The position numbers and the translations under genes were made by a program. DNA of 64,000 bases from Profundicola chukchiensis (GTDB lineage Bacteria > Bacteroidota > Bacteroidia > Flavobacteriales > Weeksellaceae). The notes under the pieces are model-generated. The model ran no database searches. It saw only the letters and a list, made by a program, of their open reading frames with translations, and was not told the DNA's origin. The stretch spans positions 1 through 64,000 of the forward strand of contig NZ_JANAIE010000002.1 in NCBI RefSeq assembly GCF_029664245.1, read 5' to 3'. Below are positions 4,777 to 25,645 of the stretch, one piece after another (position 1 is the stretch's first letter; every line of letters begins with the position of its first letter).

Positions 4777-6036
4777 TTAATCCTCTAAGTGAAATAATTC
4801 TTTCAGTTTTGAAACTAAATCTAGTTTTTCCCAAGTGAATAACTCAACTTCTTTTGTTATTTCTTCGCCATTATAAGCTTCAAAAGTTTTAGTTATAACT
4901 TGTGGAACTCTACCCATGTGACCATAAGCAGCAGTTTCTTCATAGATTGGGTTTCTTAACTTTAAGTTCTTTTCGATGGCATATGGTCTATAATCAAGAT
5001 TATTGATTAAGATCTCTGAAATTCTAGCATCTGACATTTGAACTTTTGATGTACCATAGGTATCTACCATCATGCTCATAGGCTCCGCAACACCAATTGC
5101 ATATGAAATTTGAACTAAAGCTTCATCGCAAATACCAGCGGCTACCATGTTTTTAGCTAAATGGCGCATTGCATAAGCTGCAGATCTATCTACTTTAGAT
5201 GGATCTTTACCACTAAAGGCACCACCACCATGAGCTCCTTTACCACCATAAGTATCTACGATAATCTTTCTACCAGTTAATCCACTATCACCATGTGGTC
5301 CACCGATAACGAATTTACCTGTTGGATTAACATGATAGATAATATCTGGATGGAATAAGTCTTTAACTTTTTGAGAAACCTTTTGGAATACACGAGGGAT
5401 AATAAATTGAATAATATCTCTCTTGATTCTCTCCTGCATAGCTTCTTCTCCACCAAACTCATCATGTTGTGTAGAAACTACGATTGTGTGAATTTTGATT
5501 GGCTTATGTTCATCATCATACTCTAAAGTTACCTGAGCTTTTGAATCAGGGCGAAGATAAGTCATCTCGTCACCTGTTTTTCTAACCTCAGCTAATTCCT
5601 GAAGAATCATATGGGAAAGATCTAAAGCCAATGGCATATAGTTTTCGGTTTCGTTTACCGCATAACCAAACATCATCCCTTGGTCTCCTGCTCCTTGATC
5701 TTCTGGATTTTCTTTGTCAACACCTTGTCTAATCTCATTAGACTGTTCGTGGATCGCTGACAGGATACCACAAGAATCATAAGAAAACTTCATTGAGCTG
5801 TCTGTGTATCCGATACGTTGAATAACTTTTCTCGTTACTTTTTGTAAGTCGATATAAGTTTGTGAGTTCACTTCGCCAGCCAAAACCACTTGTCCTGTGG
5901 TTACCATAGTTTCACAAGCAACTTTACTATCGGCATCAAAGGCCAAAAAGTTGTCTAAGATTGCGTCTGAAATCTGATCTGCTATTTTGTCTGGATGTCC
6001 TTCTGAAACAGATTCAGAAGTAAATAAATAAGGCAT
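4777..6036 (-). CDS. metK: S-adenosylmethionine synthetase
   Basis: MetK makes S-adenosylmethionine from methionine and ATP in the cytosol. At 419 residues it has the usual three-fold MAT architecture. Visible are GHPDKIADQISDAILD (13-28) for ATP/methionine binding, GAGDQGMMFGYA (115-126), and the P-loop-like GGGAFSGKDPSKVDRSAAY further on. The gene is monocistronic: its promoter and a SAM-II type riboswitch lie upstream and a shared terminator follows the stop. Control by the product SAM through that leader is therefore likely. Confidence 0.96.
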   Translation of the reverse strand: MPYLFTSESVSEGHPDKIADQISDAILDNFLAFDADSKVACETMVTTGQVVLAGEVNSQTYIDLQKVTRKVIQRIGYTDSSMKFSYDSCGILSAIHEQSNEIRQGVDKENPEDQGAGDQGMMFGYAVNETENYMPLALDLSHMILQELAEVRKTGDEMTYLRPDSKAQVTLEYDDEHKPIKIHTIVVSTQHDEFGGEEAMQERIKRDIIQFIIPRVFQKVSQKVKDLFHPDIIYHVNPTGKFVIGGPHGDSGLTGRKIIVDTYGGKGAHGGGAFSGKDPSKVDRSAAYAMRHLAKNMVAAGICDEALVQISYAIGVAEPMSMMVDTYGTSKVQMSDARISEILINNLDYRPYAIEKNLKLRNPIYEETAAYGHMGRVPQVITKTFEAYNGEEITKEVELFTWEKLDLVSKLKELFHLED

Positions 6037-6100
6037 AATATTGTTCTTTAATTATATTATATCTTACATCAGAAAATTCTTGGGAAGCAATAGAAAAAAA

Positions 6101-6149
6101 CGTTTTAGCATTTTTTAGAGAGGTTGCAACCCGGGTAAATTTGTCCTCT
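6101..6149 (-). promoter_or_regulatory. SAM-II riboswitch in the metK leader
   Basis: Read on the minus strand, the leader has the stem AGAGG (6149-6145) with CCTCT (6123-6119). The loop contains AATTTACC and the conserved TTGCAA immediately before the closing strand, and the stem is followed by CTAAAAAATGCTAAAACG with the conserved GCTAAA. Order, spacing and these key bases match the classical H-type pseudoknot SAM-II aptamer (from memory of the Sargasso metX aptamer: stem, ATTTAACC, TTGCAA, stem, then AAATG and GCTAAAA). It precedes metK, the expected target, by 64 nt. How binding acts on expression, translational or otherwise, cannot be told from the sequence. Confidence 0.85.
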
Positions 6150-6163
6150 GTAATTTTGAACAG

Positions 6164-6198
6164 CAAATATACAAACAGTTTTTCGATATAAAATGCAA
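6164..6198 (-). promoter_or_regulatory. metK promoter
   Basis: TATATTTG on the minus strand (6164-6171) fits the -7 consensus. A TTG lies at 6196-6198 with a 24-nt spacer, one longer than usual. Transcription from here would start just upstream of the riboswitch. The remaining part of the gap to the protease gene (6199-6344) shows no other clear element. Confidence 0.55.
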
Positions 6199-6344
6199 AA
6201 CAGCTGTCTTAATATATAATTTAATCCTATTGGAAAACATTATTAATTGATAATATAATTACAAAAATCCGCTTCAATTTGATTAATGAATTCGCGTTTG
6301 GAATAGAACTTGTTTATTCAAATAACAATCAAAAAATTAGAGTT

Positions 6345-7154
6345 ATGAAGAAAGTATATTTAATGTTAGTAATAATGCTGGTCGCGGCATGTTCTACTAA
6401 CCCAATTACGGGTAAAAGCCCGCTTATATTGGTAAGTAATGCCGAGATTTTCCCGATGGCGTTTCAACAATATCAGCAAGTTTTAAAAGAGGAAAAACTT
6501 TCAACGAATCGACAACAAACTCAAATGTTGAAAGAGGTTGGGAATAATATTAAAGGAACCGTAGAAAGGTTTTTGGCTTCTCAAGATCAATCACATTTTT
6601 TAAATGGTTATCAATGGGAGTTTAACTTAATTGAAAGTGATCAATTAAATGCATGGTGTATGCCAGGTGGTAAAGTTGCTTTTTACACTGGAATTATGCC
6701 AGTTTGTAAAGACGAAAACGGTGTTGCAGTGGTAATGGGACACGAGATTACTCACGCTATTGCAGAGCATAGTGCGCAAAGAATGACACAAGCTATGTTG
6801 GCACAAGGTTTACAAGTTGCGGGTAATATAGCTTTAAACGATAGCAAATATCAAAATGTATTTAATCAGTTATATCCAATGGGAGCAACTGTAGGTATTT
6901 TAGCTTATTCTAGAAGTGCCGAATTAGAAGCAGATAAAATTGGTTTACAATTGATGGCTATGTCTGGGTATGATCCTAGAGAAGCTCCAAAGTTCTGGAA
7001 TAGAATGCAATCTGTTGCTAAAGCAAAAGGTAGCCAAGCTCCACCAGAGTTCTTATCTACTCACCCAGATCCAGGTAGAAGGATTGCACAACTAGAGAGA
7101 GAAATTCCTAACGTGTTACCATTATACTATCAAGCTATTGGTAAAACAAAATAA
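6345..7154 (+). CDS. M48-family metalloprotease, lipoprotein
   Basis: A zinc metallopeptidase of the BepA/LoiP type, probably tethered to the outer membrane on the periplasmic side and acting in envelope protein quality control. I take the ATG at 6345, not the in-frame one at 6279, because it yields a proper lipoprotein signal peptide (MKKVYLMLVIMLVAAC, lipidated Cys16); the protein is then 269 residues. The zinc site is HEITH at 133-137 with the third ligand in the SAELEADKIG segment near 193-195. Monocistronic, with a strong terminator after the stop. Close to E. coli LoiP (YggG) in length, and lacking the TPR domain of BepA. Confidence 0.88.
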   Translation: MKKVYLMLVIMLVAACSTNPITGKSPLILVSNAEIFPMAFQQYQQVLKEEKLSTNRQQTQMLKEVGNNIKGTVERFLASQDQSHFLNGYQWEFNLIESDQLNAWCMPGGKVAFYTGIMPVCKDENGVAVVMGHEITHAIAEHSAQRMTQAMLAQGLQVAGNIALNDSKYQNVFNQLYPMGATVGILAYSRSAELEADKIGLQLMAMSGYDPREAPKFWNRMQSVAKAKGSQAPPEFLSTHPDPGRRIAQLEREIPNVLPLYYQAIGKTK

Positions 7155-25575: not shown

Positions 25576-25645
25576 TGTCTTATAATTTCAATTTATCAAC
25601 TCAACAACATACACGATTATCGTCAGAGGTTATTCAATCGGACGG
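25576..25645 (-). promoter_or_regulatory. rplS 5' leader (possible L19 autoregulatory leader)
   Basis: A leader of roughly 65-70 nt separates the predicted start of transcription from the rplS ATG, unusually long here. Part of it can pair (CGATT with AATCG around a 17-nt loop, then a region of alternating GTTG). A ribosomal leader for L19 in Flavobacteria has been proposed, as I recall; whether this is it would need a covariance-model search. Confidence 0.3.

Follow-up and report, generated by a model that had tools for sequence, protein, structure and literature searches.

The 64,000-nucleotide stretch of Profundicola chukchiensis DNA analysed here (contig NZ_JANAIE010000002.1, positions 1 to 64,000; the window) carries on its minus strand a SAM-II riboswitch aptamer, a sensor of S-adenosylmethionine (SAM), in front of metK, the gene for S-adenosylmethionine synthetase. 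The class is already known in the phylum, and such an aptamer is nothing unusual in this lineage; the addition is a putative anti-aptamer expression platform. We propose, with a probability of roughly two in three, that the element is a SAM-sensing OFF switch for metK which acts through refolding, in which a strand of the linker between aptamer and start codon pairs with the aptamer's 5' half. Comparison of related leaders, at the level of sequence, supports the aptamer, the position of the promoter, a recurrent and co-varying anti-aptamer pairing, and short leaders where SAM-II is missing.

Identity of the aptamer

The Rfam covariance model for SAM-II (RF01726, gathering cut-off 44 bits) matches the minus strand at 6154-6095 with 50.7 bits, over model positions 1-60 of 60 and with zero non-standard pairs marked. 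This agrees with a first-pass annotation of the sequence, which had proposed SAM-II ahead of metK and whose named pieces indeed follow one another on the minus strand: AGAGG at 6149-6145, the 5' strand of the P1 stem; TTGCAA directly before CCTCT, the 3' strand of P1 at 6123-6119 (CCUCU in the RNA); and GCTAAAA at 6109-6103, within the pseudoknot tail GCUAAAACG (6109-6101). Its range of 6101-6198 had the wrong extent, because it included the promoter; the model itself covers 6095-6154. The open reading frame downstream (419 amino acids, 4777-6036 on the minus strand, ATG at 6036) is 62-71% identical to its relatives, and we take it, from general knowledge of the protein, to be metK; the aptamer sits upstream of this methionine/SAM gene.

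SAM-V or another SAM class could be considered instead, SAM-V being a related H-type pseudoknot that is reported from Bacteroidetes too (available text of PMC6061858). We reject this reading as exceedingly improbable: in a scan of 401 bases against Rfam 15 at E ≤ 10, RF01726 scores 50.7 bits (E = 5.8e-9) and SAM_alpha, the alphaproteobacterial model RF00521, 14.8 bits, below its cut-off of 36, while no other SAM family reaches its own cut-off and SAM-V is not listed.

For comparison among relatives we parsed 288 sequences, of which 234 have an aptamer and a metK start, 31 have a metK start with no aptamer by pattern, and 23 are loci with no metK start. The 220 unique leaders form 107 clusters, or 106 after removal of L115, which has no Rfam match; L280 was retained though its source match (40.4 bits) is just below the cut-off, and L126 has an Rfam match that the aptamer pattern missed. 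The alignment score used in clustering was lenient, and clusters may be over-merged.

The P1 stem, AGAGG/CCUCU in the window, reads GAGG/CCUC or GUGG/CCAC in relatives, a covariation judged by eye for which no unbiased count can be given because the leader parse itself demanded P1 pairing. The pseudoknot is absent from the Rfam structure line and was therefore examined separately. In the window P2 is a short CG:CG helix of 2 bp (6133-6132 with 6102-6101), as is possible in L053 and L074 too, and the consensus CUG:CAG occurs in 49 of the 106 clusters. Over these clusters the pseudoknot strands suit their own partners better (3.92) than permuted ones (mean 3.59, standard deviation 0.084, 300 permutations). 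The pseudoknot between loop and 3' tail is present in the window, if short. Flavobacterium and its kin (L102, L212, L213, L215-L220, L222, L223, L225 and L226) have an extra hairpin-like insert between the 3' strand of P1 and the tail AAAAAUGCUAAA, with lower scores of about 47-52 bits. In the window's genus, L052 (522-652) has a tail that lacks the usual pseudoknot partner, an 11-nt insert and no anti-aptamer signal, and is possibly a drifting or altered copy.

A motif of the -7 type, TATATTTG (TAnnTTTG, by motif match), lies at 6164-6171 on the minus strand; we take TAnnTTTG to be the Bacteroidetes promoter element. It stands at most 45 nt ahead of P1 in 99 of the 106 clusters and in none of the 100 clusters of the control stretch; a sigma-70 scan of the leader region yields 3 sites, against 2.4 in shuffles. 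Since the motif stands so shortly ahead of P1, transcription probably begins a short way upstream of the aptamer, which would then lie at the very start of the metK transcript.

Between the pseudoknot tail and metK lies a linker of 64 nt (6037-6100), the putative expression platform; this is the distance that had been given from the aptamer, counted from the CG at 6102-6101 to the ATG at 6036. Over the 107 clusters, before L115 was removed, the ATG follows the GCUAA of the tail at a distance of 43-189 nt. Reading of the window's leader reveals no GGAG-like Shine-Dalgarno run ahead of the metK ATG, and a search for intrinsic terminators (a GC-rich hairpin followed by a U run) finds 0 sites in 5900-6350. 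Members of the Bacteroidetes naturally lack Shine-Dalgarno sequences, according to the available text of PMC6847099.

Anti-aptamer pairing in the linker

We measured the duplex energy between the aptamer 5' half (P1 strand, loop and UUGCAA) and the linker, and compared it with 200 dinucleotide shuffles, with swapped linkers taken from other clusters, and with a control stretch upstream of the promoter; covariation was judged by these shuffles and swaps, by permutations, and by eye on three alignments (A1-A3). In the window, strand A of the aptamer, ACAGAGGACAAAUUUACCCGGGUUGCAA (6151-6124), pairs with strand E of the linker, AUUGCUUCCCAAGAAUUUUCUGAUGUA (6091-6065), at -16.4 kcal/mol, against a shuffle mean of -8.3, and 6 of 2000 shuffles are as good. 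The alternative hairpin that contains this duplex is predicted at -20.8 kcal/mol (z -2.43, equalled by 2 of 200 shuffles); in a direct comparison it comes to -19.1 kcal/mol, where the aptamer segment by itself, in its nested fold, reaches -6.1. Its inner stem (6095-6116, by folding) joins AAAAAAUG (6116-6109) to CGUUUUUU (6102-6095) and would exclude the pseudoknot, because it consumes the pseudoknot tail.

The same pairing recurs among relatives. It reaches p ≤ 0.05 against shuffles in 60 of the 106 clusters (Kolmogorov-Smirnov, KS, 2e-48), made up of 15 of 25 family clusters, 16 of 36 named loci and 29 of 45 others; against swapped linkers 18% have q ≤ 0.05 (KS 1e-19), so that linkers suit the aptamer of their own leader better than that of another. 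The control stretch gives 7%, with KS 0.78 by shuffle and 0.96 by swap. The duplexes mostly span 17-30 nt, and in the 60 clusters the median distance from their end to the ATG is 27.5 nt. They centre on differing parts of the aptamer in different lineages, and the pairing persists. Opposite the loop CGGGUUGC the window's lineage has GCUUCCC in the linker, with UU left facing UU, and GC.UCCC is invariant in 6 sequences; in many other leaders of the family GCAAUCA or GUAAUCA faces the loop CUGAUUGC. The replacement of one combination by the other is a double change that preserves the pairing. On this comparative support, which is good, the anti-aptamer strand is the likely expression platform.

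If the aptamer instead acted alone through its pseudoknot, for instance by forming a roadblock or making the RNA more stable, the complementarity of the linker would be a by-product. Three observations would suit such a reading: conservation of the aptamer across the family, the lack of anti-aptamer signal (p > 0.2) in 17 of the 106 clusters, L052 among them, and the reported stabilisation of mRNA by SAM-II under high SAM in S. meliloti (available text of PMC9373788). We nevertheless consider it improbable, since the shuffles preserve dinucleotides, the swap shows linkers to fit their own aptamer, the pairing moves within the aptamer between lineages yet persists, and leaders that lack SAM-II are mostly short.

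This last point comes from 37 loci without SAM-II. They comprise 26 of the 30 SAM-II-less loci in a set of 80 named metK loci, which were obtained by protein and include one labelled Verrucomicrobia (L115, L138, L144 and L153 were left aside), together with 11 from the family, where 12 genomes have SAM-II absent or weakly matched and the metK locus was obtained from 11. The promoter motif is present in 27 of the 37, at a median of 35 nt from the ATG and within 60 nt in 20. With SAM-II the median is 133 nt (n = 101), a longer distance that is partly built in because the motif was there sought upstream of P1. In one genus of the family, g17 (L289-L296 and L298), the motif lies 30-35 nt before metK in 8 of 9 loci, and aptamer and linker are both missing. 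In two Bacteroidota, L144 (827-932) and L153 (822-926), a SAM-I/IV aptamer precedes metK in place of SAM-II; here one SAM sensor has perhaps been replaced by another.

Output of the switch

How could such a strand control metK? Transcription would start just upstream, so that the aptamer emerges first. When SAM is bound, the pseudoknot would hold loop and tail and block refolding by E; strand E and the remaining linker would be exposed, and metK expression would fall. When SAM is missing, strand E, complete about 36 nt later, would pair with the aptamer 5' half, the tail would be taken into the inner stem, a single long hairpin ahead of the start codon would enclose the linker, and metK would be expressed. 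SAM binding, the direction of the switch and its last step are what we infer. Poorer translation initiation is our best guess for the last step, favoured because in some relatives part of the freed linker is able to pair with the start region.

In our folding models, over all 106 clusters, the larger effect is predicted on linker exposure: linker openness goes from 0.38 free to 0.56 bound (0.478 to 0.576 with shuffled linkers). The effect on the start region would be small and toward repression, its openness going from 0.574 free to 0.538 bound (0.533 to 0.543 shuffled); it is more open free than bound by a mean of 0.036, positive in 64 of the 106 clusters, against -0.009 for shuffled linkers (p 5e-6). 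Pairing between linker and start region has p ≤ 0.05 in 15% of clusters (KS 3e-5), and 12% by swap (KS 6e-5). Some relatives possess a start-site arm, UUCUUUUG:CAAAAGAA or UCCUUUUU:AAAAAGGA, whose own pairing averages 10.11 across 77 leaders, where the highest of 500 permutations is 9.99; the permutation ignores kinship. Folds predict a marked closing of the start region from free to bound in L018 (0.54 to 0.23) and L075 (0.67 to 0.30). Such an arm would matter because translation in F. johnsoniae depends partly on structure around the start, from -20 to +20 (available text of PMC6847099). The arm was not seen in the window. Pairing between linker and coding sequence was rejected over the clusters (6% at p ≤ 0.05, no swap signal).

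Several results weigh against the proposed mechanism, beside the clusters that lack anti-aptamer signal. By swap the window itself ranks no better than q 0.073. Pairing between tail and linker (B:C), convincing by eye, proved weak (13% at p ≤ 0.05, swap KS 0.24), and we rejected it. In the models the bound state is an aptamer merely masked, with energies that contain neither pseudoknot nor ligand. When all clusters are taken together, real linkers leave the bound start region no more closed than shuffled ones do (p 0.47); start-site sequestration is unsupported as a general rule, and we keep it for the subset with the arm only. The start region of the window barely changes (0.61 free to 0.55 bound; 0.61 to 0.60 with shuffled linkers), and the window's linker does not pair significantly with its start region (p 0.62) or the early coding sequence (p 0.29). 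Finally, two leaders go the wrong way, L062 (0.51 free to 0.64 bound), in which the arm is present, and L052 (0.55 to 0.70), from the window's genus. The doubt raised early on, that the usual sequestration of a ribosome site may not apply here, was fair, given these modelled values and a leader in which no Shine-Dalgarno is seen.

The same aptamer and anti-aptamer fold could have a different output, Rho-dependent termination or RNA decay: SAM would leave the 64-nt linker single-stranded for Rho or a nuclease, and the hairpin would hide it when SAM is missing. It is the openness of the linker, not of the start region, that changes most in the models; a rho gene is present in the window's genome, and no terminator-like site in the window. 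Composition points the same way, metK linkers being C-rich (G 0.112, C 0.185, n = 72) relative to the window's other 5' flanks (G 0.120, C 0.133, n = 32; p 1e-5); in the composition taken over 104 of the 106 clusters, C (0.134) is above G (0.082) even when strand E is left out. However, C-richness partly follows from pairing with the G-rich strand of the aptamer, the flank control is a single genome, and C-richness is not seen in the linker of the window itself (C 7, G 6 of 62). Moreover, 4 of the 106 linkers contain a terminator-like site (shuffles 1.9, standard deviation 0.8), so that a few may terminate without Rho. We regard this output as rather unlikely, and poorer translation initiation remains our preferred last step for the OFF switch.

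More broadly, we see about even odds for a platform shared by SAM-II metK leaders across Bacteroidota that uses neither a Shine-Dalgarno sequence nor a terminator. In it a linker strand would refold over the aptamer 5' half, its target would drift and be matched anew, and the output arms, start-site arm or exposed linker, would be specific to lineages.

Distribution

SAM-II is present in 3 of 3 genomes of the genus, and RF01726 scores over its cut-off in 136 of 148 genomes of the family sample and is found in 135 of 196 of the order sample. In the phylum sample, where stricter filters were applied (E ≤ 1e-4), 35 of 247 genomes are over the cut-off, and the matches outside the order come from two families only (f17 and f25, 7 genomes); by this measure SAM-II is patchy beyond Flavobacteriales-like relatives. 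Among the 80 named metK loci, RF01726 is at or over the cut-off before metK in 50, from Flavobacterium to Tannerella and Porphyromonas. SAM-II is best known from Alphaproteobacteria, as the first-pass annotation held; the window's element, however, belongs to the Bacteroidetes branch (RF01726, 'SAM-II long loops') that is so common in this family.

The window's genome contains no second SAM-II copy over the cut-off (36 further matches, the best 18.8 bits), and its SAM-I match of 22.7 bits is below 44.4, with no methionine gene recognised at that locus. Relatives have weak second SAM-II matches of 27-31 bits, at least 13 among the matches listed. Eight of them (L039-L045 and L051) we rejected as chance because all fall within one conserved coding frame, taken for ffh; at the other five (L046-L050) no metK was found. 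At five loci (L126, L133, L134, L135 and L143) SAM-I (RF00162) occurs within about 1.5 kb of a SAM-II metK leader, so one genome can hold both; a 2007 survey (PMC2258182, available text) reported no species with both. The second Rfam match in the window is an L19-Flavobacteria ribosomal protein leader (25605-25632, minus strand, 43.5 bits).

Comparison with known systems

The aptamer in Bacteroidetes is not new; it entered print in 2005-2010. In the available texts, PMC1273637 (2005) mentions the Bacteroides group as having SAM-II, with B. thetaiotaomicron among its listed species, PMC2258182 lists Bacteroidetes for SAM-II, and PMC2864571 (2010, Table 1) gives 'SAM-II long loops' as Bacteroidetes, marine, RF01726. 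Among the matches listed in the open-access literature, as far as its text was available and apart from subscription papers and supplements, there is no description of a SAM-II expression platform in this phylum, and that literature returned no SAM-II riboswitch with an anti-aptamer. The available main texts of two transcriptome maps (PMC9723704 and PMC7366714) do not mention metK; SAM-II was not found in the available text of PMC12121620, and that of PMC13273304 has just 'SAM-III' in its reference list.

What our analysis would contribute is a case in which SAM synthesis is probably subject to direct feedback, within a phylum of mRNAs lacking Shine-Dalgarno sequences, and a mutable pair of strands (6124-6151 and 6065-6091) that offers a handle on riboswitch action there. 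With the 'SAM-II long loops' of RF01726, as described in the available text of PMC2864571, the window shares aptamer sequence, P1, tail and phylum; it differs in a P2b that is just CG:CG. Like the alphaproteobacterial SAM-II (the metA element, RF00521; PMC1273637, available text), it has a single stem with a pseudoknot, a promoter a few nt before P1 and the same class of gene; it differs in having no terminator-like site and in its low RF00521 score of 14.8 bits. SAM-V, in the available text of PMC6061858, is an H-type SAM pseudoknot found partly in Bacteroidetes, as here, and has no match in the window. The metA SAM-II of S. meliloti (PMC9373788, available text) hides a Shine-Dalgarno sequence, of which none is seen in the window's leader; yet the start codon used there lies 74 nt downstream of the element's Shine-Dalgarno, a precedent for the distance between aptamer and metK in the window.
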